Assembly: GCF_004210375.1 (NCBI RefSeq)
Contig: NC_134834.1
Coordinates: 161,467,290 to 161,531,289 of the forward strand
Direction of reading: 5' to 3'
DNA length: 64,000 nucleotides
Source: Tachypleus tridentatus
Taxonomy: Eukaryota > Arthropoda > Merostomata > Xiphosura > Limulidae
Shown: positions 4,161 to 56,000 of the stretch, piece after piece
How the letters are laid out: the number at the start of each line of letters is the position of its first letter
Position numbering within the stretch: position 1 is the stretch's first letter
Notes under the pieces: generated by a model
What the model was told of the DNA's origin: nothing
The model's input: only the letters and a program-made list of their open reading frames with translations
The model's database searches: none
Position numbers and translations under genes: made by a program

Positions 4161-4161
4161 T

Positions 4162-13843: not shown

Positions 13844-13905
13844 AAATTCTGACAGCCAAGATACGTTTATCATTGGAAAAGTTCGGAAACAAACCTGATT
13901 TTTCT

Positions 13906-15957: not shown

Positions 15958-16150
15958 ATTTTTGTTTGAATTTCGCGCTTAGCTATACGAGGGCTATTTC
16001 CGCTAGCCGTCCTTAATATAGCAGTTAAAGACCCACCGACGATTGTAGGACTACTATTTTAAAAATAAATAGTGGTATTTAACATGACTTTATAACTTCC
16101 CCTACCGACGAAAGGGCGAGTATGTGTGACGTCGATTCGACCATGTGACC
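15958..16150 (-). mobile_element. tRNA-derived SINE, family 1, diverged
   Basis: Tail GTTTGAATTTCGCGCTTAGC, body CGCTAGCCGTCCTTAATATA, and a remnant of the tRNA-like part near 16,120-16,150. Many substitutions indicate an old copy. Confidence 0.65.
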
Positions 16151-16195
16151 CTTTCTCAGATCATGGGACGAGCGTCCGAACCACCTAGCCAATTA

Positions 16196-19064: not shown

Positions 19065-19420
19065 AAAAACAGAACACAAAAAATCACCTTCACACGTTTT
19101 CGAACACTTCAAATCAAATAGAAACAATATAACCATAAAAAATACCCAATTACTATATAAAGAAATCAACATAAACAAACTCAAAATCAAAGAAGCATTA
19201 CTTATACAGCAACTCAAGCCTAAAATAAACATCAAACATCTAAGCACGCCCTCTACATTCCTTCTCTCAATTACACAACTCTCTTCACACATGTGGTCAG
19301 CTATCAGTCTCTTTATTTCTTTGTGAGCTTGACGACGATCGAAGAAGGTCGAAACGTTGTTCGCTTCTCTTATTATAAGTTTTCTTAACACATACAAGCA
19401 GTTTTTAAATATATACATTT
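19065..19420 (+). mobile_element. Penelope-like element 3' end (GIY-YIG C-terminus and tail)
   Basis: A frame at 19,057-19,250 reads HVFEHFKSNRNNITIKNTQL and KLKIKEALLIQQLKPKINIK, which resembles the C-terminal end of the GIY-YIG endonuclease domain in Penelope-like retroelements (IKEALxI...KPxIN). It is followed by a noncoding tail with CGAAGAAGGTCGAAACGTTG at 19,340-19,360, a sequence style I recall from the ends of such elements. It abuts the clipped end of the Tc1 element. Confidence 0.6.
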
Positions 19421-21289
19421 GTGTATCAGATCTCTGGATTCTATCAGAACATGACGTGTATAAAATTTAACTTGGTACTATTATTCTTTATCCTTGACGA
19501 GTCTCTTCTTTATTACGTTACTTATTTTACGTATTACTGATTCAAATCAGTACAAATATGAATTTGAAAATAGAAGATAAATAAATGTTAATACGTATTA
19601 AATTTATGATATTTTGTAACAAGTTTGAAAGAAACAATGTTCTTTTTTAAGACAAATAAATTTTAATACAAAAATTATAACTTATGAAAACCGTTATCAC
19701 TAAGAGTTATTACAAATGCTGGATTATATACAACAGTTTTATAAACTTGTAGACGTTAATAGTGCTACTCCTCGTTTAAGCTATTTAGTTTGATAGGCTG
19801 CACATCCTTACAAGCTGAATTTTTCCGCCGAATATATTTAACATTTTCGAAGTAATAATAATGTAAAAGTTGATTAACTGAAGTTAAACTGTTTGTAATG
19901 TTAAAAATCTATAAATGCTGCTAGCCAAATTGTGTAGTTTTCCGATTAGTTAGGGCTAATCACAGTTCTAATATTGCATTCTGATGGTAAGTGACTAACA
20001 ACATTCTTCACGTAATACTGTCTCTCGGTTTTTATATGAATCAAGCGCGTCGTTCGAAGTTTCAAGAATGTTCTAGTGCGATTTCGTAAAAGAAATTTTG
20101 TGTACTACTCTCAAGAAATTTCTACAAATTTCTGGGAAAGGCTGATTTAAAGAAAAATACAAATACCAATCAAATTAAAGTATTTTTGCTTTTAAATTTC
20201 TTCTTTCCCACTATTTTATGATTGGTTATGTTAAAATAGTTTTAAAATATAGATGAAGTTTCTATTTTTGCTACAATTACGACCAAAATAAATAAGATCA
20301 TAGATGTTTTTTTTAAGAATGACTCCACTGACACAGTTTTATGAACATATAATTTTATGTGTATCTTTTTGTTCTATCTAATACAAAGTTAGTTTTCAGC
20401 TATAAGTGAAATGTGGGTGTACTGTTAGAATTCCATTACCATTTGACCTTCCTTCAAGCCTTCTTTTGTTAATCATTTCATCTGTGATTATTAAAAACTT
20501 TAGTAACAATTATTTGGTGCTTGTTAAAAACAAAACAGATCTGATTATCCGTTACACAGATATTTGTGTGTTCAACGTGTTTTATATGTTTTTACAGCAG
20601 TTTCTTAACTTTATATTTGTGATTAAGATTAGAAAAAAAGGATTGGTACAGTTTTCCATGATGATAATCGCTTCCTGTAGGCGAACTGTTGGTGTGACGT
20701 TTAAACTTAACAACATTTACGAGTTTAAAAACACCTGATAGCAACAAATATTTTTAAATCTTCCATATTAAAAAAAGTTGTATCCATCTTAATACAAAAA
20801 AAAAAAACTGTTTTCCTTCCTTGTTATAACCACGGCAGCCTGAGTCACCTAGCAGGAAACATACAGAGCAATGGACTAATAAAATGGACAATTTTGTCAA
20901 AGAGTTGACATTGATGGTGTCTGTTTGCAATATAACACATTCACACAGCTAAACAGAGCAGATATCCATTGGCATCTAATGGGTTTATCTTTACTCTTTT
21001 CGAAAGAGCTGATATCCTACAAAGCTATGTATAGCAAGAGATGTAAGACCTGTGGGCATCAAATAATATTACTGTTTCCGGAGGTGTTCAGATTCGTATG
21101 CTGGAGTCATGTATATATTTGTATGGCTCTTATAATTGTGGTAAACTTTATATCCACAACTCATAAAACCCCCCACATATAAAGTATTTATACATCTTTG
21201 TAAGACAGATACGATCCGTCAGACACCTAGAGACTTTTGGAAGAAAACAGTAGCGTATTTTGGAAAGCACTAAATTTTCTGTTGATTTT
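19421..21289. other. Intergenic, includes the source of filler segment B
   Basis: No gene is supported. Positions 19,588-19,941 reappear inverted at 40,076-40,430. A hydrophobic frame at 20,406-20,738 has no recognisable motif. Confidence 0.5.
19588..19941. repeat. Donor copy of filler segment B
   Basis: Its reverse complement occupies 40,076-40,430 with essentially no differences seen by eye. Ends: TTAATACGTATTAAATTTAT on the left and CAAATTGTGTAGTTTT on the right. Confidence 0.92.
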
Positions 21290-21590
21290 TTTTTTAATTT
21301 CGCTCAAAACTACTTAATTGTTATCTGCGATAGATGTTCCTAATTTTGCAGTGTAAGACTAGAAGGAAGGCAGCTAGTCATCACCACTCGCCGCCAACTC
21401 TTGGGTTACTCTTTTACCAACATTTTACCAAGATTGACCGTCATATTATAACGGTGGTACGGCTGAAAGGTTGAGCATGTTTGGTGTAACCGGGATTCGA
21501 ACCTCAGATTACGAGTCGAACACCTTATCCCACCTGGCCATGCTGGACCTTGAGTCGAACACCTTAACCCTCCTGGCCATGCCGGACATT
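21290..21590 (-). mobile_element. tRNA-derived SINE, family 1, with duplicated head
   Basis: Nearly full-length minus-strand copy. The tRNA-like start appears twice in tandem (ACCTGGCCATGCTGGAC and CCTGGCCATGCCGGAC), with TTGAGTCGAACACCTTAACC repeated. Confidence 0.85.
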
Positions 21591-23297
21591 TTCTATTGAA
21601 AATACTAATGACTACTTTAAAAATTTAGTGGAGCTTTTACGTTACTTTGTGTTTTCAGCCTTTTACAGGTTTTCTTTCATTTTCTTCAATAGTGTGATTA
21701 AGTTTTCTCTTACATATATCGTCTAGTTAAATTTAAATCAATTTTTATCGTTACTAACTTTAATTGTCCTGTGGTCTTTATTTTTATAACTTTAATCACC
21801 AAAGTATAAATTTCTATAATTATATCTCTTCTTGCTGTAGTGTACATTAGAATTTTGTCTCTATAATCTCACTGGCAAGGACTCGAATGCACTTTTATCT
21901 TTTCACCAAAAAACACTAACATCTGTACAGTTTATCAAAGTACATGTTTTGTCTTTATTGATGGTAAAAACATTGCATATATTCACTTCTTTATTGATGA
22001 ATTACTGTTTCTTACTTCTCATCCGACTTGTATTCCTGATGATAAAAAAATAATGGTAATGATTTTCAAAACCAAGTGTAGATGTTTCTCAAGACCGTTA
22101 ATAGTGTAGTGTCACATATTTTACTGTACACATTATTAACAACACATTGACTATATATATAGTTTGATTCGAGTTTTAGCATAAAAGGCAACTGTATTTT
22201 TATCTGCACATTTTGTTTTTCGTATTTTAACTGTCTGAAAGAAGGAACGTGCCAGTAGTTACATCGTAAAACTGAGCTTTGTTTGTGTGGAATTTTACCC
22301 GTTTAGGTTGTGGTGACCTTCGATTTTGGTTTTTAAACGTTGTAGTTGTTACTGTGTGTTTTCTTTGTTAAGTGGATTATTTTCATTTTTCTATAATCGA
22401 TATCGCGGGAAACAGATGCAGATTTGGTTTGTTTTGTGTTACACAGTTGCCATGACAACTTTAGACGAAACGTTAACAATTCTGATGTCTGTCATACCTC
22501 TTCTTCTCGCATGCTGAATACCGCAGTATATTTAGAATCTGAGAACGTAGAGAATCAAAGTAATTTTATTTATTAAATAAGTTATTTACACGCGTGCAGA
22601 ATTAAACATTGAACAGCTCTGTATATATTATGCTTTAATTAAGATAATTTTGAATCTGCCAAGGATTGTTGTGTGAAAGTACAGTGGGATGTCTTGATCC
22701 AAAGACCAAATCACTCTTAACTTAAATACCCTTGGTTGATTTTTGTGTAGACTAAGAATAAGGACAAGTTTCATGTGAAGTTGATCTCCCAATAATATCT
22801 ACAAATAAGGAAAACATAATTTAGATTTTATCATGAGAAAACTGTTTGGATTAGCTTAAAATTAACCGAGAACTTGGAAAAAAATATAATTTGTATTTTG
22901 TAAAAGACAGTATTATAAATAATGTACATTCATTTGTTAGTAAGACGATGGTGACTGTTAACTTTATTAATTAATTTAATTAAGATCGAAATATTGGAAC
23001 AATCAACAGATGTTCATGAAAACACATAACTATGATTAATGTGTTAAATATATTACAAGTAGAAATAAGTAATTCGTCTTAGAGCGAGAAGATGAAGTTT
23101 ATTAATCATACCGACTAATTTATTTTATATTTATTGTTTTTATAACGTCAAACCTTGGATATTTTTAGAAATAATGAAACCAATTTAGAAGAGGACTTTA
23201 TTGACTGTGAAGAATTTTGTAGAGTTTGTGTTGTTGTTTTTTTTTTTTAACATTGTCTGGAGAAGTACTCTGATCTATATATTATGTTTGTAATTAA
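21591..23297. other. No recognised feature
   Basis: About 1.7 kb of AT-rich sequence. Short frames are present, none with a motif I recognise. Confidence 0.5.
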
Positions 23298-23405
23298 TCG
23301 CAAAGCTACAAAATTCGGTATTTGTTCTCAGCCCATCATGGATATCAAACCCTGCTCACTATAGTTGTAAATCCCGAATGCATACCGTTGTGTCACAGAG
23401 GGGTC
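23298..23405 (-). mobile_element. tRNA-derived SINE, family 2, diverged
   Basis: The minus-strand copy has CGCAAAGCTACAAAATTCGG, CAGCCCATCATGGATATCAA and ATACCGTTGTGTCACAGAGG. Confidence 0.65.
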
Positions 23406-24984
23406 TACTCGAGTTACCCAATTTGTATCACTTATTTATTTAATCTTGAACTTAAGTTAAACTTTAAAAAAATTCAAAACCACAAGTGCAGTGGCATGTT
23501 GTCAACTGCACATTAGTTCTTTAAGTCATGTGTTGTTTGAATTTCAATTTTTAAAAGAATATTTTAAATTATTAAACATATAAATTTATAAATTACTAAG
23601 TAATATTAGCGTGGCAATATGTATTTATAACAACTCACATTTTCCCTTAGTCTGCAATATTAAAAGTAAATACTAAATTGAAATACTGTTTTGATCTTCT
23701 GCAATAGTGGTGACGAAAGCCCTTTTAATTGTGAAAACTACTTTCGAATAATAAAACCAGTTATATTATTGTAATGTAGTCTAGTAAGGTGTATCCTTAG
23801 GAAAACCGAGCTGAAACCCTTTTACATACTATATAGCTATAGTTATTACATAGCAAAATACTTATGTTATATAACTGAGAGAGATCTTGTGAAACTAACT
23901 GTGTCTAGGTGATTAATTTAATTAGTAGAGTGTGTTGTTAAAGCTAGTAAATAGGAGTTAAAGATATCAGCTGGTTTGCTTCTGTATTGTTTATAAAGAT
24001 TTGTATAGGTTGAATTAACTAGTTTCATTCTTGTTTTATAGTTTCAAAAGGTGAGTAACGATCTTTTAAAGTAAGTTTGGGATTAAATAAAACTTAATTT
24101 ACTTAAGTGGAATAAGTCAGATTTTATACTTTATTATCAATATCTAATATAAAAATGCAAGAAATGTCGTACTTATTTAATTAACATTTTTACGATGTTA
24201 AATCAAGATATCGTTAGGTTTAAAGAATTACACATTTTTCTGTTATTAATAACTGATATTTTCATTTTCTCTCGGTTTCATGTAATCGATACAGTACGTA
24301 AATCGGTTTTAAATACGACTCTCTCTCTTAAGGTTCAACTGAAGTGGTTCTTAAGCGCCATTTCTCTGGGCTTCAAAACCTGAAGCTGTGAGATATCCTT
24401 GGTGGACGGTAAAGCTAGCTCTTATTTCGATGTTTTATTGCTCTGTGGAAAGATACATGTTATGTTTCAGTTATTGATATTTAAAGTATCTGGAACAGGA
24501 ATTAATCATTTTATCATACAGTTGTGGGGGGAGTATCTGACCTCAATACCGACTATCTTTTAATTGAATAGCAGGGTTAGGTGTTCAATTGTATCTCTCC
24601 CACATTTCAAAATGTCAAGTATGCTCAATGCTTTTTTTGGGAAGTTCAAATGTCAGTACGTTTAATTAACCTTACGAATGAAACCAAACAAGATTATCAG
24701 TTATAGCTAGCACTACCTACCGACATTCTATATAATGATTAAACATGTTTTTCCTCACAGTAACTATTATTTACTAAATTTTTGTGTGAAGATTTATCAA
24801 GTATTTATCGTAAGTGAATAAAATGATAAAAAATACATTGCTTTAGATTTAATATACAAGAAACTGAAAGAAAAACACACTTTTTTGTTTCTCATTTTAT
24901 TGAACGACAGTGTTATTTATATTACTTACCTAAATGCTTCATTAAAGTTTGGTTTGTGTGCCCAAACTGCTGTTAGAAATATCT
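23406..24984. other. Intergenic, includes the source of filler segment A
   Basis: No gene is supported. Positions 23,723-23,835 reappear inverted at 39,961-40,072. Confidence 0.5.
23723..23835. repeat. Donor copy of filler segment A
   Basis: Its reverse complement is found at 39,961-40,072 (for example GGTGTATCCTTAGGAAAACC against its complement). No differences seen by eye. Confidence 0.92.
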
Positions 24985-35690: not shown

Positions 35691-35744
35691 TAATTTTTCA
35701 CCCATTATACGTCTTTCACTTACATCCAATATGTTCACTACATT

Positions 35745-36385
35745 ATTTATATATGTGATTTTAAATTTACATCCAATGTGTTCACTACGTTATTTATTTA
35801 TAATATTTTAAACATACATCAATGTATTCACTACGTTATTTATATATAATATTTTAAACTTATATCCAATATGTTCACTACGTTATTTATTTATAATATT
35901 TTAAACTTACATCCAATGTATTCACTACGTTATTTATATACAATATTTTAAACTTACATCCAATGTATTCACTACGTTATTTATATACAATATTTTAAAC
36001 TTACATCCAATGTATTCACCACGTTATTCATATATTATATTTTGGACTTACATCCAACAAGTTCACTAAGGCTATTTATATATAATATTTTAGCCTTACG
36101 TCCAATGTGTTCACTAAGGCTGTTTATTTATATTATTTTGGACTTTCATCCAATGAGTTCACTAATGCTATTTATGTATAATATTTTACACTAACATCCA
36201 ATGTGTTCACTAAGGTTATTTATTTATATTATTTTAAACTTACATCCAATGTATTCACTACGTTATTTATATATAATATTTTGGACTTACATCCAACGAG
36301 TTCACTAAGGCTATTTATATATAATATTTTACACTAACATCCAATATGTTCACTAGGGCTATTTATTTATGTTATTTTAGACTTA
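35745..36385. repeat. 47-bp minisatellite, about 13 units
   Basis: Unit of the type ACATCCAATGTATTCACTAC followed by GTTATTTATATACAATATTT and TAAACTT. Part of this array (35,838-36,166) is copied directly at 40,478-40,757. Confidence 0.92.
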
Positions 36386-36839
36386 CATCCATACCAGCAT
36401 CGTGTAGCATTGCGCGAAATTCCGAACAAACCAAAAATCCTTAGATGGCCATTTTTTGATAAATCCTATAATATATCGTAACATTTCAAAACAAAATTCT
36501 GCTTTTCATCAGCGACCATGTAGGATATTTTCTCTTAAATACATTAAATTTTCTATCCTTTTGTAGTAGTATAACAATAGGTGATCATTGCTTAAAATTC
36601 TTGTTGGTTTTCTATAGATAGAAATAACAGTTCTTGTTTTGCTTTAGCTGTAAACATGTCTAAATATAGCGACAAGGTACTGGTTCACTTTTAAAGTTAA
36701 TATAATACTATGCTTTACTAATCTTTTGAAAAGACATAAAAATCATTTCTGAATTCAAGTTGAATAAAATACATGAACGTGTCCAAACTTATTTCATATA
36801 AACATCTAGTTACATAGTAGAGACTTTAACTTCAGCCCC
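36386..36839. other. No recognised feature
   Basis: AT-rich sequence. Confidence 0.5.
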
Positions 36840-39852: not shown

Positions 39853-39960
39853 AACAGTATGTAGTACCTGTGCTGCCTCTGCTGGTGGAATTTTGAAATA
39901 TTCCTCGTATATCATAAAACATTTACTGTATTACAGCATTTTTGGGTGAATTAGAGGTAA

Positions 39961-40072
39961 ATATAGTATGTAAAAGGGTTTCAGCTCGGTTTTCCTAAGG
40001 ATACACCTTACTAGACTACATTACAATAATATAACTGGTTTTATTATTCGAAAGTAGTTTTCACAATTAAAA
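39961..40072. repeat. Filler segment A, inverted copy of 23,723-23,835
   Basis: ATATAGTATGTAAAAGGGTT to TTTTCACAATTAAAA is the reverse complement of the donor. It begins the patchwork leading into the right arm. Three bases (CAT) that match neither donor separate it from segment B. Confidence 0.92.
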
Positions 40073-40075
40073 CAT

Positions 40076-40430
40076 AAAACTACACAATTTGGCTAGCAGC
40101 ATTTATAGATTTTTAACATTACAAACAGTTTAACTTCAGTTAATCAACTTTTACATTATTATTACTTCGAAAATGTTAAATATATTCGGCGGAAAAATTC
40201 AGCTTGTAAGGATGTGCAGCCTATCAAACTAAATAGCTTAAACGAGGAATAGCACTATTAACGTCTACAAGTTTATAAAACTGTTGTATATAATCCAGCA
40301 TTTGTAATAACTCTTAGTGATAACGGTTTTCATAAGTTATAATTTTTGTATTAAAATTTATTTGTCTTAAAAAAGAACATTGTTTCTTTCAAACTTGTTA
40401 CAAAATATCATAAATTTAATACGTATTAAC
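40076..40430. repeat. Filler segment B, inverted copy of 19,588-19,941
   Basis: AAAACTACACAATTTGGCTA to TTTAATACGTATTAAC is the reverse complement of the donor. About 47 bases of unassigned sequence (40,431-40,477) follow. Confidence 0.92.
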
Positions 40431-40477
40431 GTTAATGTTTTGGTGTTAACAGTTTAATACGTTTTAATAAACGTATT

Positions 40478-40757
40478 TATATATAATATTTTAAACTTAT
40501 ATCCAATATGTTCACTACGTTATTTATTTATATTTTAAACTTACATCCAATGTATTCACTACGTTATTTATATACAATATTTTAAACTTACATCCAATGT
40601 ATTCACCACGTTATTCATATATTATATTTTGGACTTACATCCAACAAGTTCACTAAGGCTATTTATATATAATATTTTAGCCTTACGTCCAATGTGTTCA
40701 CTAAGGCTGTTTATTTATATTATTTTGGACTTTCATCCAATGAGTTCACTGATGCTT
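40478..40757. repeat. Filler segment C, direct copy of part of the 47-bp minisatellite
   Basis: Matches 35,838-36,166 in the same orientation and unit order, including the diagnostic variants ATGTATTCACCACGTTATTC and TTTTAGCCTTACGTCCAATG, but with about one unit fewer. About 17 bases of unassigned sequence separate it from the right arm. Confidence 0.9.
40710..40715 (-). promoter_or_regulatory. Candidate poly(A) signal for the right receptor copy, supplied by filler C
   Basis: AATAAA on the minus strand, 68 bases after the receptor stop codon, within the copied minisatellite. The native 3' UTR was not carried into this arm, so this is the first such signal available. Function is inferred. 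Confidence 0.35.
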
Positions 40758-40782
40758 TTAAAATTATATCCTATAAGAAAAA

Positions 40783-43700
40783 TCAGGTTTGTTTCCGAAC
40801 TTTTCCAATGATAAACGTATCTTGGCTGTCAGAATTTTCAATGAGAATAACAACCTTTTTTTTTCGATGTCCTTGTTTACTATTTGGTTTAACGATAATA
40901 AGTTCATCGTAATTGTTCACATTTCTAGGAAACAGAGGTCGCTGGATGTATTCTTTAATAGCTTTTCCTTGTTTTGACGCTGGTGTGTCTCTCTGAAGAT
41001 GTAGAATATAGTTATGTTTAGTGGTGCAACACTCAAAATTTGAGCAATAATTTTACTATAACATGCATAAAACCAAATAAATGTTTCTATAAAAATTATA
41101 AATTATGAAATTGGTTTCAGTTATCTCATAAATGTTTTCTGGAAACTAGAAAAACTATTTCAAACATTGTTTCACGCAGTGAATAAAGAATGATATACAG
41201 CAGACAATAGCTTAAATACTGTTTTCCATTTATATTTTACACGTTCACAAAGGATAACTAGATTGTTTATATTATTGTCTAGACAAGATGAAAGTACGGT
41301 TACAATTAAATATCAAGTGTTCCACTCAATTTATTGTTATATAACTAGACAAAATGAAAGTGCGGTTGTAATTAAATGTCAAGTGTTCTACTCAATTTAT
41401 TGTTATATAACTAGACAAAATGAAAGTGCGGTTATAATTAAATGTCAAGTGTTCTACTCAATTTATTGTTATATAACTAGACAAGATGAAAGTACGTTTA
41501 TAATTAAATGTTAAGTGTTCTACTCAATTTGTTGTTATATAAATTAAACATCAAAAGTTATGTGATCTGAACTTCAAACGACTGGTTATTTACCTTATGT
41601 TACAGAAAGAAACAGTTTTCAAACTGTCTTATTTTTTTGCAACTTTGGAATAAATCACGCACCTTATAGCGTTTAAAACAATCAATAATCTTAGTAAAGT
41701 CCAAAAGAAGAGAACTGGATATTTCACTAAATGTCTTTCAGACCAATGAAAGTTGGCTGACAGTCAAAAGAAGAAAAAAAACTGTTGTAAAATGTCTGAA
41801 AGCGTCATCAACAAGATATAGTTGAACCACTTGCAACAAAATGGCACAAATACACTGGTACTTGGCTAAGAAGGTCCCAATCCTCCTTTAAAGCAGGTTG
41901 CCATTATATACCGATTATGTGTAACCTGATAATATCTGAATCAGATGTTCAAAGCTCTAACATGACGTCATTTCATTGTACATACAGTTAAAAAACGAAA
42001 TAAAGTGAGCAATATGAGCGGAAGTGATATATTATGGTGCCACTAGTGTATAAAATAATTCGCTTTTATTATCAGTAGTGGTAGTATGTATGTGAATGAA
42101 AAATTACGAAAGGGCATTCTGATCTTTATGTTTTCCAGATGTTATTAATGCAATGGACATCAGTAAAGGTAATGCGAACTTCTTACACAATCATATATCG
42201 TTACGATTGGCTCTGGCTTCAGTTTAATGGATGGTAATTGTCTTCCAACATGTACTAAGATTGAAGAAGAGGTGCTTCATCAATTTAACTAGCATATAGA
42301 CTTATTAGACCTCAATGGTATCGAACATGTATAAGTCTATTTTGGAGAAAAAAAAATTGCATGCAATCAAACGACTCTGAACATTAAAGATTCTCTGAAC
42401 GCATCTTTTTTTTAACTGTAAAAATCTGAATTTACTTGCATCAAATATTAATTATTACGTAAGATGAATAAGAACTTAATTGAATTTCGAACCAAAGTAT
42501 TCCTTTCTCCTAGGTCGTTTTCATATATCGTCTCCAGGGTTGTTCGTTTGGTCACTTTTTGCTTTCTTGGAATATTAGTTTTTGTCTTCTTAACATTCTT
42601 TGCAGAGACCTTCTTCTCACATTCATGGATCAGTGGCATAGCCTCCAATATATCCAATTCATCAGTGGTTATCTTTTCATCACCAGACTGTTTGTGTTCG
42701 ACACGGTTTTTCAAAACATTCCGTTCTTCCCGAGGTTTAGATTTCCAGGTGTAGAAAAAACAAAGTACGCTGCATGATCATTACAGAAAATAAATAAATA
42801 AGAATCACGTGTTTCAAGTCCATTAAAATACATATTGTAATTAAATAAGCTATGGATAATGCGTCACAGTTAAAACTTGCAGTCGTAACTTACCACAAAG
42901 CAGTAAGACACATCAAAATGAGTGCTGTTCGCCAAGCACATCTTGGAACTGTAAATTTTGAAGTCAAGTGAAGCGTTGCCTTCGAAACCACTTCAATTCG
43001 ATCTTAAGACAGAGAGTCGTATTTAAAATCAGTTTACGTACTCCACCGGTCACGTAAAACAGAAAAATAAAACTTCAAATGTAAGTTAACAATAATAGTA
43101 ATGTGTATAATTCTTTAAGTTCAACAATAATCTTCATTAACATATTAAAATTGTAATTAAATAAATATGAAATTTCTTACATTTATAATATATTTTCATA
43201 TTAAACATTGATAACAACCTTTACAATTTGCCAACTGTATATATACATTTTTTCTTTACATTTTAAACAGATAATTAGCAAAGAAAAATGACGCCTGTTA
43301 TATTATTTGAGCTCCTTACTGGTAGACAAGTAGTACAGTTATGTAATAACAACAACTATATAGTTATATAACATAAAATCAGTCAGGTTTTCCAACATAT
43401 TTACATTAATAGAAATACAACAAGGAGCCTACTGACTTTCCATTCCAAACACACATGATCAGACTATATAAGAAAAATCTAGACATTTTCTTTACGATAA
43501 TTGACATATAATACAACTCAGTATAACACAGTGAGTTAAATCAACTTCGATTCACTTAACTTGTAAGGATATGTAACACAAACAGTCATTCCATTGACTA
43601 CTTAATAAAGTCAGTTTGTTTAATGGGTATTCACTTACTGTGTTAAGTTTTATAATTAACAGCTTCACTTATTATGGTGCATAATTATATTTTACTATCA

Positions 43701-46700
43701 AATCGCATCCACTGAATGGTAGTTTCTGCGTCTTTACAACACTATTAACAACAGTAATTTTTACAAATTTCTCTTTACTCTAAATTTCCCAGATAAATAA
43801 CGATACCATTTTGACCACAAACACTGAACGTCGTACGTCACTCCTCATGAAGTTTTTCGTTTACTTGGTAACAATTCTTTCTAATAGTTTTATTGAGTAC
43901 TCATGAGACACTGCTAACGTTTTGATAATCCAATGGTATTATAAACTTATATTAAAACATTTGTTTTGCATTTGGACAAATTACTGTACTTTATTACAAA
44001 AACGACATTATGAACACAAAATAAACATATTAAACATAGATTTAAGTTATGTTTTGGGACATATACTGTTTTAGTTAAATATCTTTACGTCTTTTTAGTA
44101 ATAATGTGACGCATACAGATGTGCTATCGAGACACCGTAATATTTGTTTGTTTTTCAATGTCGCGGATAGCTGAACGAGGACTTTCAGCGCTAGCCGTTC
44201 CTAATTTTGAAATGATATACTGGAGGTAAGACAGCTATTCAATACTATTTGTCGTAAATGTTTGAGCCCATCTTTAAAAACGAGTAGTAGGATTTCCCAG
44301 TAAAAGCAAAGCTTTTTAATGCATTAAAAACCATGAAAGTTATGAAGAAGTATCGTATTATAACAATCTGCATGAACAAAAATAAACATCTTTAAAATGT
44401 TAAGGAAACAATAAAAGAAAACTTTAAAACCCTTTTGTTCCATTACTTCTGCAAAGATCTTTATTATCAGCTCCTTCTTCATCAGTAATTTCGTCTTCAG
44501 GACAAGCTACACAGGCGTCAGCAGCAAAAGACGTCATGAAAGTCCCTCCTGGACACGGCAGGCAGTGAGTTTGGGATCCGTTATCATAGTGTCCAGGAGG
44601 ACATGGATCTAAAAGCGTTAAAAGTACATAGCTAAACATTTATTTACCCAGTGTTAATTTTTATTGTTCCAACAACGTCTTTAGTGTCAAAAAACGTATT
44701 TGTTTAACTAAAATTCCATATTTTTAAAAGTCTTTCATCTATTTGTGTTTAATGTGAACAGTTTAAAGTAATTGAGTGTCCTGTATACTTACAACACCTG
44801 TCAGCATCTCTTCGGTATCCCCGAGTACAGTTGAGATTCTCGGCTGGAACATACACTGGGGAAAACAACAGAGAGTTAATATTTTTTGTTAGCACGTTTT
44901 GTGTCACCGTTGGAATTTTAAGGTTTTTCACAATGAGCACGACGCACTAGTTATAATATTAAGTATGACTCACTCTGTAAAATAACAACATTAATGTTAC
45001 TTTTCATAAGAAAAATAAAACGTGTTGAGCTTCAGTTTCTTAACAGTAGACTTTTGTTTCTTTATGTACTTCCTGATTAAGTTAACTAATGAAACTAATC
45101 ACACAAACTTGGAAGTTTATGAAATTACACACGATATTTTTTTTATTGGTATATTTGATTCCTGTTGGCGTTTCCCTTGTAAAATTCTTATTTGTCACAG
45201 TTAAACGTTAAACTGTTGTCACTGTTTATGTTAATATCAGTATTGTAAATACAGGTTCTTTTTGGGAATATTACGTTGGTAAAATGTATCAGTATATGAT
45301 TGTGTCTTGCAAACAACAAAATATCAAATAATATCCTTATAAAGCAGAAGTTGCATGAAATGCATTCCGAGAAAATTTTTCATTTGAAGTTAATACAAAA
45401 GCAAATACTTAATTTTTTTGTGGATTTATCAAGATAAATAATATTGCGATCTAACACCTTTCACTGTAAATTTAAAGTATTGTTTATTCAAAATACGTTC
45501 TCAAAAAACTTCGTAGATATAATTTGTGTCTTTACAGTTCACAAGATTTTGCTTCAACATTCACAAGTTGAGTTCATTATATCAAAATAACTTTGGAGCC
45601 ACATCACTTCTCTCTACAGGTTTACCATAATCCATCTGGTCTCTGATCACATAGAAATCTATAATTACTACATCAGTGACGTGACTGGTAAGTGTGTGTG
45701 TGTACAATAACATGCATATCTATCTAATTACTCAGCGGTTAGAAGACTGAGATATTTTTTTTTTACGTACTGTCGCCTGGGACACTTCAGCGTTTTTATC
45801 CTGACATTTGTGTTCGTACAACTTGTTGCACGTCTTTTTATGAATTGTTCATAAATTGTTTTGGCGAACCAAAATTATTTTTTCGATGCTCTTAAATACA
45901 ATAAATATCTTTGTTTCGAAAAATTTAAATTCTCATTTGAATATATTTTCATATTTAAGCATATAAAAATTTACATTGAAAAGGTCTGTTACAAACCTTT
46001 CCCAAAAGCAACCAATTTTCGGTTACATCACACCATTTACGAAATGTTAAGCAATGTCATAAAGTTGTTCTGATAAATTCTGTTCTATCGTGACTTTATA
46101 TCAGATTGAGTCACATTATATGCCAGGTTGCATATTCAAAACTGTTTTGGCATGGCTTACTAATCCCTATAAACTATAAAGTATTATTGCTGTGAACATT
46201 AGTGGCAGACTCTGACTAATACTGCATGTTTATTTCAGGAGTACCGATAAGATTACGGGTTCGTCTTTATCCCTGCCCTGAAATAGCTCTTTTCAGGGCA
46301 TCTTTAACATCAACTGATGGAATGTGATGCATCTTTCATAAGTATATTATAGCTGTCAATATCAACATCTTCAAATAATCTGCCGACCCACTTAGCACCT
46401 TGGAGTTGGGCAATATCACCCCTTACTGGAGTCCTGATTAGATGGATCAGTATATGGACGAACAAAGAGTGTAGTATTGATGGTAACATTTAAAGTAATT
46501 ATATGTGGATATGTTTACCAATACTTATTCATACCACACTTCAACATCGACATTTTCTCTCATTAAAATTAAGAAAAACTGATTTCATGTTATCTCTAAA
46601 GTAATAATTCCTTGTAAGTACTTTTAACAATGTTGTAATAATCTGTTTTATGCATTTATATTTCTGAGGAACCCACTTGAAGCTAATAAATATTGCAGAC

Positions 46701-49700
46701 ATTCTACAATGGGTAATTTAAAACTTTTTATTAGATAATTCATATATAATTCGATGTTTCTAGATTATAAAGCGATTAGGAAGGAGATTTGAGATAACGG
46801 TGACACAGAGAAACCTCAGTCAGCAACACGATACTCACCCAGCCAATAACCCTAAATACAATAAGCAAAATACCTTGATACTTATTAAGAAAAGAAAGGA
46901 AATACAATACTAATGTCATTTATAAAATACATTGTGGCAACTTCCACGTATTTTACGTCGGAGAAACAGGCCAAAAACACAAAACAACTTTCATGTAACA
47001 CAAAAAATAGAATCTCACGTTTTTAAATTTAACACTGCAACTCAAATATATATACTACAGGTAACATTTAAATGCGAAACAGAGAATCCAACATCACTAG
47101 ACGATAAACCAAATAATTCCTTGTAATACAAGAGCAAACACACGTTAAATCAACATAAAGAAACACTTTTATATCTATATTAATAAACTTCAATAAATCT
47201 TGTTCGATGTATTATAATTTGAAGATGATACTTTTAATTTACAATATTTTATAATTTACAAAATATTCTGAGAGTACTAAGAGTAATGCAGATAGTATTA
47301 ATAGGAAATTACACGAAGGTTGTTAAAAACTATCGTATGAAAATAAGACAGTTCAATTTTCATTACAATTAAATGATATAAAAGATAACGTATCGTTTTA
47401 TGAACGAAATCTATAAAAACACAGTTTAATTAACGTAGATGAGAGTATTTTAAAATTCCTATCTGGTGCAGTAACAACACTTTGATCAGCAGAGACAAAT
47501 CCATAAAGAAATTATTTACTCTTTAGGTGAACAAACGAATAATATGAATTATTTGACTCAACCAACTGAAAACCATGATTGGAAAAGTATTCAGATCATT
47601 GGTAAGTATCACTAATATACCAATACATATCAGAAAAAAAACAAAATGAAATATATAAAACAAGAGCTGAGTTGTTAGTTTTCAATGACAAAATTCAGAA
47701 TAACTGACAGTAGTTCGCTTTCACAGTGGAAAACAGTAGATCGGAGTTAGCTCAGTTAGTACAAGCACTGAATGTGACCGCAAATAGAAAGTTAAGTTCT
47801 TGCTTTCTACTCCAAGTAAGCTATCAAATCTATTAAACAAAAGCGAAAGATCACCTCACACTTGCAGTTTGTGGTCCCTACACATAGTTATCAGATTTTC
47901 ATTTATTACATGTGAACTGACACTAATACAGCTACAATTAGAGATACCTTGAAAATGTTTAGACAAGTTACATAGAAATGTACTTATTGTAGCTGTATTA
48001 ATATCATAATATCAGTCCACGTGTAATACATGAAAATCTGACAACTATATATGGGGACCACAAACTGTAAGTATGAGGTAATCTTTCACTTTCGTCTAAT
48101 ATATTTGATAGCTAACTTGGAGTAGAAAACAAGAACTTTACTTTCTAATTAACTGTATAGAATGAAAAGCTTTTCGAATGATTAAGCACACATAGTTTTT
48201 CTTATAACAAAACCACATCAGGCTATTTACTGTGTCCACCGAGGGCAATCGAACTCCTGATCTTAGCGTTGTAAATCCATAGACTTACCGCTGTTCCATC
48301 GGGAGACTATTTCATTAAAACAATAACTCCATGAACGTAGTTATTTAATGTTAAGTGTTAACTGATTTTATCTGTTGTCAGTCCAAAACTGGTTGCTTAT
48401 CAGTTCGATTATAAGACTATAATCGAAACGTTTTTTAATTAATGATTAAATGGTACAATAGATTATATTACACATTTTAAAGCTGTGAGTTTTTGTTTCT
48501 ATTTTTCTCTGTAAATATGAACTCTACTTAAACTAAAGACATACTTATACGACTTGGATTTAAATCTATTCATAAAGAATATGAAAAAACAACGTATTTG
48601 CGAGTCACTTGAAAATATTGAACTGCAAGAAAAAGAGAATCAATTTAAAATAAAACACCAGTTTTAATAAATGAAGTTCAATTAAAATTCCTTTTAACCA
48701 AAGAAATTATTCAGTCACATTTATTCCAGTTTAAACATTAAATCATCGTGTAATATCATTGCTTCGCCAACTTAAACATTTTCTACCCATTCTGTACATA
48801 TTTTACAACGCATAAGGAAAAAATATTTTTTGATCGCTATAAATGAGACCTACTAACGGGTTCTAGCATTAAAGTAATCATCTAAAACGAGATTTTCGCA
48901 CACCACTGACTTAAAATCAGTAATGAGCATATTGAGAAAAATGAGGCAGAAATATTTGCGAGCAAATGTGGCATTAAACATAATTATTAGGATTCACTAA
49001 CATCTGCACTCTCCATCAAAACTTTTTACTATTAAAGAAACATCCGTTCACGGTAAGAACGAAAATATTTAATTTGTATACGTAAAAATAAATGTAGAGC
49101 TAAGTTGTTTATGTTTGTGTGTTTTTTTCCTTTAGTAGGGCCAGCATGCTCGTCTTTTCAACCGTGGGGGCGTTATAATGTGACGGTCAATCCCACTATT
49201 CGTTGGTAGCCCAAGAATAGGCGGTGGGTGGTGATGACTAGCTGCCTTCCCTCTAGTCTTACACTGCTAAATTAGGGACGGTTAGCACAGATATCCCTCG
49301 AGGAACTTTGTGCGAATTTTAACAAACAAACTTCTTTTAGCAAAGCCACGTCGGGCTATCTGCTGAGCTCACCGAAGGAATTCGAACCTGTGATTTTAGC
49401 GTTGTAAATCCGTAGACTTACCTCTGTACTAGTGGGGGGCAGAGCTTAGCTAGCAAAAAAAGAAAGAGAATCGAACGGCGGTGGTATTAACAGTTTGAAA
49501 CTACTATAGAGAAACTTTAAATAGATTGAAAGTGTAGTGATCAGTAGGATATCTTTACAGTTACAAAATTTTAACCAAATCTTTGAATTCCTAAGGTTGA
49601 TTTGTCAGAGAGTATCTTGTTTACTTTTAGCTTCGTTAACTACCAAGCTCTGTAAGAGAAAAATCAGGAATTCCATAGCTTTAACCAATGAATACAAATA

Positions 49701-50743
49701 AATATCACAAACATATAGTAAGATTGATAAAATATTGGTTATCGAATTTTTAATGACAATTAAACTAATTTCAAATGCTTTACAAACGATAATTAATGAC
49801 AGAATTAATTTTCTTTTTTTCTTCGCATGAACATTCCGCTTGGTTGTTTACAAATAAGTAACACATAATATGAAATTTTTATTGTGAAATAATTAAGTTA
49901 AAAGTGATACTATTGTCATCATAATCTTATGTATACATGGGCAATATAAATAATTTTGTAGTCAATACACGTGTAGAAACGGGCATATTTACATAATGTC
50001 TGAATAAAACAACATATGAATCAAGATTTACATGTATTTATACTAACGTTATACAAAGATGTTTAGAAGTACTTTTTCGAGATTTGCGACTGAAATATAT
50101 AAATCCCTTTCAAGAATCAGCCCCCAAATATATTCCCCCCATCATGTTTTCGTTGCACACGCTCCCAAGTCACAAAAGCAAAGTTTGAAGACAATAGGCC
50201 TTTACCATTTACTTTAGGCATAAGCAATTAGGAAATAACATTTTGTCCATAGTGTAATCTTACATATACACAGGCAATTATTTTTATAATCAATACACAT
50301 GGTGAGTGAAATATCAAACGAAAAGGTTATGGCTGAAAGAAATTTAAAAGCAAGATGGACGATTCAGATTTAGATGTTATTTCTGTTAAATTACTATCGT
50401 TTAATAAATAAAAATATGGTCTACAAAAAAAACTTTGAATTTACCTCTGACATCATGTTTGTAATCACCTTCACGATTTTGCATGTGTAAATTCCGCGTC
50501 TTCAAATTCCACGTCGGTTAGCACTAATTTGCCACCGTATTTTATTTGTGTTCTCTCATTATTAATAACTAGTTCATTGCGATTTGAGTACCAAATAACT
50601 ATTTCTTTTCTCCCTCTTTTATAAGCTTGGTTTGAACATATTAATGTAAGAGTAGAACCACGTTCAGTTTCGTAGACGAATTTAAAACCTGAAACAAGCA
50701 GGAAACTACCGAAAATATAAAATAATTGAGTGTAATTAGCCAT
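40783..50743 (-). CDS. Ig plus GCC2/GCC3 type I membrane receptor-like protein, right copy
   Basis: Minus-strand exons: 1 (50,445-50,743) signal peptide and Ig domain; 2 (44,793-44,855); 3 (44,447-44,608) GCC2/GCC3 Cys-rich domain; 4 (42,894-42,948); 5 (42,769 to 42,459 or 42,493); 6 (from about 40,992 to the stop at 40,783). Exon 4 joins 3 in phase 1 and 5 in phase 2, and the join of 4 and 5 makes one hydrophobic helix, TALILMCLTALCVLCFFY, followed by a stop-transfer KSKPREER. This cross-exon match strongly supports the model. The tail is Lys-rich with acidic patches and ends GKVRKQT. The Ig exon lacks two single bases relative to the left copy (GGG to GG, AAAAA to AAAA) after the Ig Trp, which breaks the frame before the second Ig Cys. 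The 3' arm breakpoint lies 8 bases past the stop. Family not recognised. Confidence 0.75.
41278..41545. repeat. 66-bp tandem repeat, about 4 units (right)
   Basis: Inverted counterpart of 13,139-13,400. The unit is a multiple of three and happens to stay open in one frame. Confidence 0.85.
42513..43796. other. Right-arm-only block holding transmembrane and tail exons
   Basis: This block has no counterpart in the left arm. It contains receptor exon 4 (42,894-42,948) and most of exon 5, plus about 800 bp of AT-rich intron without a recognised element. Lack of any transposon ends at its borders and the presence of proper exons argue that it is ancestral. Confidence 0.85.
44148..44285 (-). mobile_element. 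tRNA-derived SINE, family 1, 3' half (right arm)
   Basis: Inverted counterpart of 11,700-11,838, with similar divergence from the family. Confidence 0.6.
45745..47245 (+). mobile_element. Degenerate repeat with a Penelope-like GIY-YIG trace, right copy
   Basis: Inverted counterpart of 8,775-10,240. The plus strand at 46,930-46,992 reads HCGNFHVFYVGETGQKHKT, close to the GIY-YIG core of Penelope-like elements. A frame segment at 45,861-46,073 (CYKPFPKATNFRLHHTIYEM) is conserved with the older copy at 28,905-30,385. Confidence 0.5.
47744..47815 (+). mobile_element. tRNA-like head of a third SINE type (tentative)
   Basis: GGAGTTAGCTCAGTTAGTAC followed by AAGCACTGAATGTGACC resembles a tRNA A-box arm, and CTACTCC could pair with the first bases. 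The B box is poor, so this is not a functional tRNA gene. Confidence 0.35.
47787..48150. repeat. Foldback element with about 160-bp inverted arms
   Basis: Arms carry GTTCTTGCTTTCTACTCCAA, GCAGTTTGTGGTCCCTACAC and CAGATTTTCATTTATTACAT on the left and diverged complements on the right, around a 45-base centre near 47,965. No transposase. Arms differ at perhaps 15% of positions. Confidence 0.8.
48180..48312 (-). mobile_element. tRNA-derived SINE, family 2, fuller copy (right arm)
   Basis: GATTAAGCACACATAGTTTT, GTCCACCGAGGGCAATCGAA, CTCCTGATCTTAGCGTTGTA and GACTTACCGCTGTTCCATCG. The left arm keeps only the head portion. Confidence 0.8.
49137..49335 (+). mobile_element. tRNA-derived SINE, family 1, partial (right arm)
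   Basis: Inverted counterpart of 7,246-7,433, in receptor intron 1. Confidence 0.8.
49336..49443 (-). mobile_element. tRNA-derived SINE, family 2 (right arm)
   Basis: Inverted counterpart of 7,133-7,245. Confidence 0.8.
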
Positions 50744-51357
50744 TGAAATCTCTCTGCACTGTACGCTTTGTAAGTCACTTTCTGTATTGTTTCTAAGTGA
50801 AATATCAGTGTTACTATGCTTACAAAGTATTCTTGTTTGAATGACGTCATGAACTCAAGTAATATCGTTTGGTGGAAAAATTTACTAACAATTATGATTG
50901 CTGATTGCAAAGTTTACTGTTTTCTGTTATTGCTTGAACTGAGATATTATAATCATGTTTATGTTATGCAGTACCAACTCAAGTAATTTAGTTTTAACAA
51001 ACAATAACAACACTTTCCTGAGATTTCAACTTGAAATTTAGTTAAAGCAAATAAAATTTATACGAAGTTTTGCTTTGCAATTTCTTTTGACAATAGAAGT
51101 CTTGTCGGTATTTATGATTTCAACCACAATAAGACTGCTAACAGATGTCTCATGATTCATATAAATTATAATTGAGTAGTTATAAATGTATAAACATTGT
51201 AACCATATTTAAATTTAAAAAAAAATCAGTTAAAGAATATTCACATATATAACTTATGTGACAAATACTGCATTCCATGGTGCCATATAGGGATTAATAA
51301 CTACAATTAGCTATATCAGATATTCTGTTATTAAAACTAATAAGATTTCAATAGTTT
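50744..51357. other. Upstream region of the right Ig receptor copy
   Basis: Inverted counterpart of the left upstream region, with scattered single-base changes. No firm promoter element seen. Confidence 0.4.
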
Positions 51358-51506
51358 GTTTTTGTTTTTGAATTTCGCACAAAGCTAGTGCGATATTTGT
51401 GCTAGTCGTCTCTAATTTAGCAGTGTAAGATTAGAGGGAAGGCAGCTTGTCGTCACCACCCACCGCCAACCCTTGGGCTACTCTTTTACCAACAAATAGT
51501 GGATTT
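51358..51506 (-). mobile_element. tRNA-derived SINE, family 1, truncated by a deletion (right arm)
   Basis: Only the 3' half of the left arm's 4,921-5,203 SINE remains. At AACAAATAGTGGATT it runs directly into the Tigger flank (TTATATGCTGTAC). The bases ATT are shared by both sides of the join. Confidence 0.85.
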
Positions 51507-52768
51507 ATATGCTGTACAGTATAAATCTGAGCATCACTTGCTGTCAGCGACAGTTCAGTTTTTTCATGTTAAGGGGGGGGGGGTATATACTTTTTACAGA
51601 GATCCTTTTATTATGCGTGAGAAAAAGAATGTGTGATGATACCGAGCCAAAGAAAACACTCTGGTACGCATAATATTCGTATTGCAAGCGAAAGTTCAAG
51701 TGTAGACAAAGATGCTGCTGAAAAATTTCCTAATGAATTTATAGAAATTATTAAAAAGTACGGTACAAAGATAACCAAATATTAATGTTGATGAAACGGG
51801 TTTATTTTGGGAAAAATATGCCTTCTAGAACTTTCCTATCAGAAAATGAAAAAAACTCAGCCACGTTACAAGCGCTAAAAGATCGTTTGACACTTGTTAG
51901 GAAGAGATGGATCTGGCGACTTTAAATTAAAATCTATGCTTGTGTATCGTGCAGAGACCTCCCGAACATTTATCAGCTGTGCAAAGAAGACTCTCCCAGT
52001 TGGTTGGCGAACAAATAAAAAAAAATGGGTCACGAAACCTTTGTTTCAAGACTGGTTAAAAAGTTATTTTTGTCCTGCAGTTGAACATTACTGCAAAAGA
52101 AAACAACCTGGACTTTAAAGCCATCCAACGGGACTTTGTGACTTTAATGAAAATGTCAAAATTCATCTTCTTCCACCCAATACATCTCTACTGCAATTAA
52201 TGAATCACATTGTCATTGTGACGTTTAAAGCTTATTATTTGAAGCGAACTTTTTCTCAAGCAATAAAGACTACAACTACAGAAGCTGCACTATCTTCGAC
52301 TAAATTCCGGAAAAATTACATCATCAGAAGTGCAATCGAGAGTAACATGAGAGCAATATGGAAGTACGTTCTGCCTAATTGTGCAAGCGATTCCTGCGGC
52401 TTTAAGTTCAAAATTAGGGATGTTTCTGAAGACGTCGTCAAAATTGGACACAGTCTTGGATTTGAGTCTTTGGAAGTGGCTAATATTCGAGAGTGTACTT
52501 ACACACATTCTCAAGCTCTCGATAATGATACGGTCCTTAATTTATACCAAGATCGGGCACATCAGGAAGAAAAAAAGTCCAGAGTGTAACGAAGGTGCCA
52601 GTGAAGAGCGGGAAAAATAATTTCCCTTACATAAACTTCACAAAATGTTTATAGCAATGGAAACTGCTTCAGACTTAATTATGAATCATGATCCAGACAT
52701 AGAGCACTGCATTAATGCCAGACGAGCGTTAAGTGCTTTTTATGTAAAGATAGTTGACATGGTTTTAT
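51507..52768 (+). mobile_element. Tigger (pogo) transposase remnant, right copy
   Basis: Plus-strand counterpart of 2,839-4,160. It shows the DETGLFW-type block near 51,790, KDRLTL, SGDFKLKSMLVYRAETSRTF, WRTNKKKWVTKPLFQDW, then HLLPPNTSLLQLM (about 52,158-52,200, lost in the left copy), TFKAYYLKRTFSQAI and the C-terminal NHDPDIEHCINARRALSAFY ending near 52,768. The frame is interrupted and the N-terminal DNA-binding part is not seen. A G run near 51,573 is 11 long here against 7 in the left copy. Confidence 0.88.
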
Positions 52769-53008
52769 AAAGTTAAAAGCAAATCATTGTTGCAATCTGT
52801 GATCGTACATGTTGATATTGATTCAATAGCTGGATAATATTTGTCATCTACAGTGCTACTTTTGTGTCTTTAAAACATCTAATAATTCTCAAATAACTAT
52901 GTAATTTGGTTGAATAATATATGATTATATTTAGCAAGTGTAGTGTGTTTTCAAGTTTCTGTAAATGTCACATTTGGTTATCTAGATTAGCTGTTCAATA
53001 TTAAGAAA

Positions 53009-56000
53009 ATGAGTGGGGAAGAGCCTGATGTGGAAACAGGCCAAAGAATTTTAGCAGGTAAGTACCGAATAAGAATATAAATACTTCAGGACAAATATTG
53101 AAAAAGAAACATGTTTCTCATGTTGTAATGGTATAAGTTTTTCTTGTCGTTTTATGTATGTATTTAATAATTTTGATTTAATATCATCATTTAAACTGTT
53201 TCTAAAGAAAAATGTGCTTTTGTCTGTTCCACAAAATGTTTTGTATGTGTATAAAATATGCTTAATGTTCTTAATTTATTCTTTGAATTATTTAGCAGAG
53301 GCATTTAAAATAATAAATGTGAAACAAGATCTCTCATTTCATTTATCACTTGTTGAAATATTATACCAGTTTTAGGGAATTTCACCCCTCAATTTGCCCC
53401 TGTCGAGGCTAAATCATGAGTGGTGAAATTCTCTGAAACTGGTATAACTCAAGTGACGAATGGTAAATCAAATCTTTGAAGAGACACTGTAGTTAAATGA
53501 CATTTATAATTGTTTTGAGACTGAATGTTTTTTAAAATATCTAAAAAGATTTACAGCTAACAGGAGATTGTATTCAACAAACAGTTAATTTAGAGCCAAT
53601 TTTATGATTGATTGGTCACTAATTATATCACCTGGCAGATATAAAAGACTGGTTAGTGTAGGTAGTGTTTGTTTATTTATTTTAAGGATTAACATTTGAA
53701 AAGTAAGAAAAATTTGGACATAAGAAAACCAGATTTTCTGTACAATTTACTTTTTAATTTCAACAGTGAACAACATTAAAAATTACCATTTCTGTGTATT
53801 CCTTCATTGTTTTAATTATTATTATTTCTGTCAGATTCAGAGTCTGATTCGAGCACTAATGAAAGTGCTAAAGATATCAGATCAATATCAAGTGAAATTG
53901 ATATTCAGATTGAGGAATCCACAGAGGTATTATTACATTGTTCAATAGTTAAAAAGAGTTTATGATTCTGTTTATTATTTATTACATGATGCATGTTTAT
54001 TAGCACTTCTCCTGTTTTATCATTACAAAATAGTTACGTTGCTAACTTTTTTTACTTAAAAACATCAACAGATATTCAAATTTCTTGTATTTTAAAGTTC
54101 TAATGGTGTATGTAAAAAAATCAAATCTTACAAACAGTTTTTAATGTACAACTGTCATGTGAATTAAGTTGTTCAATAATTGAGGTATTGAATGGTGGAA
54201 TAAATGTGTCTTATATACACCTTAAGTTGGCTTGATTCTTTCCAGCATTTTATATACATATATAGAACACTTGTGTAATTTTGATATGATTATATTTTGT
54301 ATATTTATTAATAATACAAATATTTACTGTGCCCCTTTGTATATATAACATGTCTTGTTTTTTATCAAGGGAATTAATATGACAGGTTTAATGTACATGA
54401 TATAATTTTTTTATACCAATCACTGAAATTAAATGCTTTTTTTTCAAAATCATTAACTATTCTGTAATATTTAAAGAAAATTTTCTTTCAGAATTATTTT
54501 CTTGAGGGGAAGAATTGTATTTGGTGAATTCTGTGGAGCAGAACATTCATGTGCTGAAGACACACTATGTCTATAAACATTGTCTAGTTTTATATCTAAA
54601 GATCTATATCTTATGTTTAAAATGGCCCTGTTTTAAGGGCCCCTTACTTTTTATTACAAAAGTTATCATTTAGAAATAAAACCCTTAAATTTGGAAATAA
54701 TTTTTTCTTGGGTGAGGTTACTTTAGGGAAGTTTCCCATGTTCTGTGGTAAGAATACTTATTCATTTATGCAACTTGTGAGCTTTACATGTACAGAAATT
54801 ACAAGCTGCCACTAGGATATTTCAGTAAATGTGTTCATATACTCTTTAGAAGCCTATTAATATTTTTTTTATAAATACAGATTCACTTTTGATAGATGAA
54901 AAAAAGATCAAGTCTATATGTATATATTGAACTATTTTTGTTATGAACAAGAAACAGAACATTTAGACAAACCAATAATACAATTCCAAATTTTTGTAAT
55001 TCTAACTAGGTTTTATTTCATCTAAACAAAACATTTAGACAAACCAATAATGATTTTTGTTTAGATGAAATAAAACCTAGTTAGAATTACAAAATTTTGG
55101 AATTGTATTAACTAGAACCTTCTTTGTTTGACGATGGATACCGTCGAACTGACTTTGTGTTAGTTTACAAGCCATCATCAGAGAAAGACAGCGGTCCTCA
55201 TGAAAACATTAGACAACTTTTGAGGCAAATCTGGAAGATGAAGGGTTGGAACTGGAACATGTTCATCAAGTAAATGTTTTTTTATTATATATCTGTTATT
55301 TCATGATGAATTGTTAATAGATGGTTTAGGTGTTTGTTTTACATAAGAAAATAATGTATGAAACATAAAATTGTAAGAAATTAAAATTTAACTAAACTAA
55401 CATTTTGTGTTTGGTTACAAGATTTCATGTAGTTAAAGTGATAAATGCAAGTCTTCAAAGTTTTGCTTATTTGCAAAGCTGTTGTTTTGCTGTATCTTTC
55501 ATTATTGTGTTTTAATGTGTCTTTCTTCAGACTTGTTTTTATTTATATTACAAAAATATTCCTGTTCTGTAGCTGTTAACTCTGAATAGTTTATTATATA
55601 TTTAACAAACAACTTGTACTAAGGAAAAAAAAAAGGTATTTATTTCAAGCATTAAGTCATATGAAATGTTTAAAGCTAGTGGTATAATTATTAGTATAAC
55701 ATTTATTTTTATTAATTACTTGAGGTAAAAGATAGCTTTGTGCATAGATCAACAAATTATGTAACTAACTTGATACACTGGTCTATCTAATGGAATACTG
55801 TATCACAGAAATAATTACAATAATTATATGAAGAGTTGGGTAACCTGTTTTTATTAATAATTTTACTTATAATCCTAGTAATATTTTATGAGGTTTATAA
55901 GGCTTAGAAGTTGTATATACTCTGTTTGATGTGGAAATGAATTTTTACCCCAAAATGGGTTTTAACTTAATAATATTTGACAAAAGTATATTAAGGAAAT

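Follow-up and report, generated by a model that had tools for sequence, protein, structure and literature searches.

The DNA analysed here is a single window of 64,000 nucleotides from Tachypleus tridentatus (NCBI RefSeq assembly GCF_004210375.1, contig NC_134834.1, positions 161,467,290 to 161,531,289). It contains a large inverted duplication whose arms flank a spacer, and an 814-bp patch (39961-40774), assembled from three local donor loci in the orientations reverse, reverse and forward, exactly fills the interval between spacer and right arm. The features are as follows.

1-13906, forward strand: left arm of the inverted duplication, whose outer end lies beyond the window
13907-39960, forward strand: spacer of about 26 kb, containing the donors of patch pieces A, B and C
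19587-19941, forward strand: donor of B, matching the reverse complement of 40076-40430 at 354/355 positions
23723-23834, forward strand: donor of A, matching the reverse complement of 39961-40072 at 112/112 positions
35718-36391, forward strand: tandem array with a period of 47 bp and 14.2 copies (Tandem Repeats Finder), donor of C
39961-40072, reverse strand: patch piece A, inverted copy of 23723-23834 (112/112)
40073-40075, no strand: filler of 3 nt between A and B, which do not overlap
40076-40430, reverse strand: patch piece B, inverted copy of 19587-19941 (354/355)
40431-40473, no strand: filler of 43 nt between B and C, without a convincing donor
40474-40774, forward strand: patch piece C, composed of three stretches copied in direct orientation from the 47-bp array
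40775-55551, reverse strand: right arm, inverted copy of 13906-1

The inverted duplication and its surroundings

Both arms were delimited by a blastn self comparison together with a global alignment. In the self comparison, the first base of the right arm (40775) pairs with left-arm base 13906, and the pairing runs to base 1 of the window. Because the alignment reaches base 1, the outer ends and the outer breakpoint fall beyond the window, and the right arm may extend beyond 55551, since its partner leaves the window there. The global alignment, cut at 13906 for the divergence figures, contains 178 substitutions (109 transitions and 69 transversions) in 12,822 aligned columns (1.39%) and 51 gap events. 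This divergence is unevenly distributed: the inner segment (8331-13906) carries 104 substitutions in 5572 columns (1.87%), whereas the outer segment carries 74 in 7250 (1.02%; Fisher P = 7e-5), and runs of 444, 449 and 468 bp are free of any difference. Taken together, the unevenness and the difference-free runs form a pattern that gene conversion could leave.

Among the larger indels, 986 bp are absent from the right arm, with AAT common to both ends, and segments of 563 bp and 1283 bp are found in the right arm only. One right-arm-only stretch of about 1.28 kb (42513-43793) has TA at each end without clear inverted ends, and it represents either an insertion into the right arm or a deletion from the left arm. 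Of 32 single-base indels, the left arm lacks the base in 17 and the right arm in 15. They are one-sided by block: nine consecutive ones are missing from the left copy (9114-11087), and five consecutive ones are missing from the right copy at left-arm coordinates 37-482. Many of the single-base indels sit in homopolymers, and their block-wise one-sidedness may reflect residual consensus error.

The window is AT-rich (GC content of 26-43% in 2-kb blocks), harbors tandem arrays detected by Tandem Repeats Finder and has only short open frames, 13 of which reach at least 120 codons (longest, 180 codons). Rfam gave no match at the gathering score for the window, and ARAGORN, run with the bacterial code, predicted no tRNA gene in it. 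The window also contains repeats that we take to be copies of a tRNA-like SINE; searches for the SINE-core pattern in the genome-contig and viral-contig collections yielded 0 stretches. Pfam matches were obtained for two of the seven frames tested, an immunoglobulin domain and a fragment of a DDE_1 transposase. The frame with the immunoglobulin domain is present in both arms (5689-6144 and 50471-50854; Pfam Ig_3, E = 7.7e-8 for the left copy); its right copy comprises 127 codons and its left copy 151, and a single base near position 6047 of the left copy has no counterpart in the right. The open frame that spans the inner end of the left arm at 13906 (13804-14100) matched no Pfam family at E up to 1 and is therefore of no help in deciding the polarity of the rearrangement. 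Near the donor of B lies a 1.4-kb element (17687-19070) with 69-bp inverted ends (88%); its frame resembles, by eye, a Tc1/mariner transposase and has no Pfam match. As in a fold-back inverted duplication, the spacer is single-copy within the window: A and B are its sole inverted near-identical copies longer than 28 bp.

Composition of the patch at the inner boundary

We masked 39861-40774 and decomposed the patch by aligning 39900-40830, as a gap-free mosaic, to the window and its reverse complement. The result was identical at jump costs of 8 and 10; at a jump cost of 12, B extends by six bases with two more mismatches. The first-pass annotation had described three templated insertions with donors in the adjacent spacer, and the mosaic alignment and the blastn self comparison agree with it in donors, orientations and coordinates to within a few bases, the donor loci of A, B and C (the last taken as the whole 47-bp array) all lying inside 13907-39960. 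They are located about 4-21 kb from the patch on the same molecule. The pieces themselves are separated by gaps of 0-43 nt.

Piece C has the most intricate structure. Its first stretch (40474-40529) equals 35837-35892 at 56/56 positions and its second (40530-40755) equals 35943-36168 at 225/226, 281/282 for the two together; between them 50 bp of the array, about one repeat unit, are skipped. The third stretch (40756-40774) is the weakest piece of the patch and corresponds to 35852-35870 at 17/19 positions, a jump back within the array. For comparison we drew 19-mers from other parts of the window, 1500 of them AT-matched and a further 1500, and none in either set fitted the array equally well. 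Judged from these matches, 40756-40774 is better read as a further slipped bit of the 47-bp array than as unassigned. The patch is hence an insert built from identifiable templates: A (112/112), B (354/355) and C (281/282 plus 17/19). Of the 3, about 47 and about 17 unassigned bases counted initially, the first figure stands, the second becomes 43, and the third gives way to the slipped piece of the array.

For the 43-nt filler, the search for donors returned matches of 10-17 bp only, no better than those obtained for ordinary sequence to the left of the patch. We also considered a hairpin in this filler and rejected it: the filler alone folds with a z-score of -0.81 relative to shuffles (41/200 shuffles as good), and together with its flanks (40414-40480) with a z-score of -2.27 (3/200).

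Chance similarity between the patch and its donors can be rejected as well. A first self-comparison of the window (at least 95% identity over at least 24 bp, leaving out the arm pairing and skipping same-strand pairs less than 900 bp apart) returned six pairs; A, B and C account for three of these, and the other three measure 27-28 bp. In a second self-comparison there was no distance skip, and both the arm pairing and pairs inside listed arrays were left out, so that C drops from the comparison; A and B are then two of seven pairs, the remaining five again measuring 27-28 bp. A, B and C are thus the sole long near-identical self-matches of the window outside the arm pairing and the tandem arrays, and further copies of A or B at 95% identity or more were not found within it. 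Nor are comparable copies present at the left inner boundary. The placement of the patch on the right-arm side is borne out by this, as local copies from three places occur on that side of the spacer only.

The two inner junctions fit the FoSTeS/MMBIR mechanism invoked in the first-pass annotation, a term that implies replication primed by microhomology, less well than does the multi-template, local make-up of the patch. Alignment of the joins fixed the boundaries of the pieces. The A/B and B/C joins carry filler of 3 and 43 nt, respectively, whereas scoring the two outer joins for microhomology would take the ancestral sequence. At the A/B join the three bases are added with zero overlap, at the spacer/A join the base preceding A mismatches the flank of A's donor, and the C/arm join is blunt if the weak 17/19 stretch is accepted. 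Published template-switch junctions have microhomology often, not always. In the cited part of a study on germline templated insertions in two people, at least 1 bp of microhomology was present at 138/155 and 135/148 resolvable junctions (PMC8421209), and replicative junctions are reported to include blunt ends and, at some joins, small insertions (PMC5120786).

One of the ends involved lies at a 14-bp perfect palindrome (19588-19601), with B ending one base beyond it. Of seven ends tested, belonging to pieces, donors and arm, three have a small inverted repeat (arms of at least 5, loop of up to 6) no more than 3 nt away, vs. 17% of spacer positions. By our own reckoning this excess is not significant, and we rejected the idea that the switch points lie at such repeats.

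Origin and timing of the patch

We consider it probable that the patch is a repair scar left by local copying from several templates, whether it arose together with the right arm or afterwards. Extension would have started from a DNA end where the spacer stops on the right (39960) and used short local templates in succession: A and then B would be copied on the reverse strand and the 47-bp array next on the forward strand, where synthesis slipped from one repeat unit to another, until it ended at the right arm (40775, the partner of 13906). Either a polymerase switched templates in the manner of FoSTeS/MMBIR, or several rounds of local synthesis were completed by end joining. To bring sequences from three loci to one place would take a single receiving site, while the reverse direction would call for three separate exports. 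We infer from this arrangement a copying mechanism, a single event for all pieces, and an origin at the inner breakpoint that coincided with the formation of the right arm or followed it. It is plausible that the patch is the founding junction of the right arm, and plausible, too, that it was made by FoSTeS/MMBIR in the strict sense. If the patch marks the new junction, then the left arm plus spacer would be the older arrangement, as the first-pass annotation had proposed, and this also we regard as plausible.

The donors, the receiving site and the arms lie in one window, so that the scar provides an internal clock for comparison with the arms. A single event drawing on one molecule should have left patch and arms equally diverged. 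Leaving aside the fillers and the 17/19 tail of C, the patch differs from its donors at 2 positions in 749 bp, as compared with 1.39% between the arms; in 749 bp one would expect 10.4 differences from the whole arms, 14.0 from their inner and 7.6 from their outer part. In random arm windows of the same size, two or fewer differences occurred with frequencies of 0.021 (whole), 0.0013 (inner) and 0.057 (outer). When the 17/19 tail is counted, the figures become 4 differences in 768 bp and frequencies of 0.078 (whole), 0.012 (inner) and 0.18 (outer); in a first cut, with C taken as 277 bp, they were 1 in 744 bp and 0.0066 (whole), 4e-5 (inner) and 0.022 (outer).

The patch may post-date the arms, given that it resembles its donors more closely than the arms resemble each other. 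The contrast is suggestive of a later repair of the inner boundary, although it depends on the comparator chosen and is not strong; it could mean later repair, a right arm derived from the homologous chromosome, or uneven mutation or conversion. We tentatively entertain, as a less probable outcome than its opposite, that the patch is either younger than the inverted duplication or of the same age with a right arm copied from the other homologue. Within this joint, tentative option, a younger patch would mean that multi-template repair made a palindrome-like repeat asymmetric near its centre and thereby fixed the present spacer; copying from the homologue, if true, would mean that arm divergence records heterozygosity and that the patch records the true age.

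Later repair taken by itself is a variant in timing of local copying that we regard as rather unlikely: the arms would have come first, and local copies would have closed a later break at the inner boundary. The low divergence of the patch relative to whole and inner arms speaks for it, and in the cited part of PMC10766186 it is proposed that NHEJ, MMEJ or MMBIR can secondarily erode palindromic junctions. Against it stand the weaker contrasts obtained with the tail included or with the outer arms alone, the uneven divergence of the arms with their long difference-free runs, and the consideration that a right arm copied from the homologous chromosome would give the same contrast in one event. 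What the locus could show is whether the age read from such an inner boundary is that of the old inverted duplication or that of a later repair.

A, B and the right arm are collinear on one strand (23834 to 23723, 19941 to 19587 and 13906 to 1), so that A and B could also be what is left of a longer inverted copy after losses of 3.8 and 5.7 kb. The inverted duplication may, in other words, once have reached at least to 23834, and the sequences corresponding to 19942-23722 (3.8 kb) and to 13907-19586 (5.7 kb) may subsequently have been deleted from the right copy, a history that we think unlikely. Donor order and orientation as kept by A, B and the arm would arise in about 1 in 24 cases for random pieces, a value that we derive from two orientations and the order of three, and indels of considerable size do exist between the arms (986 bp with AAT ends missing from the right, 563 and 1283 bp in the right only). 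The same order would, however, be given by a backward-copying polymerase that skips forward. A and B together show 1 difference in 467 bp, against an expectation of 6.5 (whole arms), 8.7 (inner) or 4.8 (outer); so few were seen with frequencies of 0.058, 0.012 and 0.109, respectively, in random arm windows, which is weak evidence against deletion. Moreover, deletion leaves C, a direct copy, unexplained, and C and the filler would have to be inserted at the second deletion, an addition that we likewise think unlikely. C alone clearly requires copying from elsewhere, and, as a direct copy, it does so under template switching and deletion alike. A transposon insertion in the left copy, as a different source of the 3.8- and 5.7-kb intervals, was rejected, because there is no target-site duplication and the right copy has filler, not overlap, at these intervals.

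That the structure is an artefact of assembly or library preparation, in which a chimeric molecule, produced for instance by whole-genome amplification, caused an allelic haplotype to be attached in inverted orientation, seems to us decidedly unlikely. Differences such as those between the arms (1.39% substitutions, many 1-bp indels in homopolymers, few large indels) are possible between two alleles. More than 85% of MDA chimeras are inverted with intervening deletions, and more than 70% of their junctions are primed at 2-21 complementary nt, according to the cited part of PMC1855051; palindromic reads have been reported in amplified tardigrade DNA (PMC13265396, cited in part). Fillers of 3 and 43 nt are unlike such primed junctions, however, and the diverged arms, as well as the 50-bp repeat skip and the few base differences between patch and donors, speak against an artefact.

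We regard as very improbable an inversion of the spacer through staggered breaks, which would leave inverted duplicates on both sides and reduce the patch to filler at one new junction. The geometry of arm, spacer and inverted arm is the same as that of a staggered-break product, and staggered breaks are one model for the inverted duplications at the ends of Drosophila inversions in the cited part of PMC7584159. To produce arms of 13.9 kb or more, the stagger would have to be very long, whereas the Drosophila overhangs discussed there measure 58 and 534 nt and repair is proposed there as an alternative to staggering for the Drosophila case; a staggered break by itself also predicts no three templated pieces. 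A processed (spliced) retrocopy was dismissed, as neither GT nor AG is present at the donor boundaries of A and B on either strand.

Relation to known systems

The systems compared here are taken from cited parts of the respective studies. MDA inverted chimeras (PMC1855051) share with the Tachypleus locus the switching between nearby inverted templates and differ from it in that the patch joins carry filler and the arms are diverged. In the ODIRA model (PMC10766186), erosion of a palindrome by a secondary join leaves an inverted duplication with a copy-neutral spacer; ODIRA involves an inverted triplication and a replication origin, and the likeness drawn here concerns the join and the spacer only. 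For the O7 inversion of Drosophila subobscura, it has been proposed that inverted duplications arose when synthesis switched templates and copied backwards, in part along the homologous chromosome (PMC7584159). That case, like ours, is an evolutionary one in an animal, and its older inverted repeat had its spacer altered later; the O7 inverted repeats are about 1.1 kb long and the cited text describes no multi-donor patch, whereas here the arms extend over at least 13.9 kb and the patch has three donors.

Similar in architecture are human fold-back inverted duplications with a disomic spacer (PMC3907307), which likewise consist of a non-inverted arm, a single-copy spacer and an inverted arm, and which can carry insertions of local sequence where the spacer meets the inverted arm. 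In that report, 13/21 such joins show 2-8 bp of inverted microhomology, and the insertions described include ones of 4, 16 and 70 bp (1-372 bp in work cited there), compared with 0.8 kb from three donors in the present case. The human events are large and modelled from a terminal deletion; at the locus described here, the outer end lies beyond the window.

With regard to the patch itself, the nearest counterparts are human complex insertions (PMC5120786) and MMB-TIs (PMC8421209), in which a rearrangement junction carries copies from one or several templates that can reach hundreds of bp and beyond; junctions ascribed to iterative template switching are reported to carry templated insertions of hundreds to thousands of bp (PMC5120786). 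What sets the patch apart is that it has no microhomology at the A/B join and carries filler of 3 and 43 nt. Ours is also an evolutionary case and not a de novo one, and its status as a founding junction we infer. Its usefulness lies in the case that it provides, not in a new mechanism: the patch is a well-preserved example of a scar of known kind.
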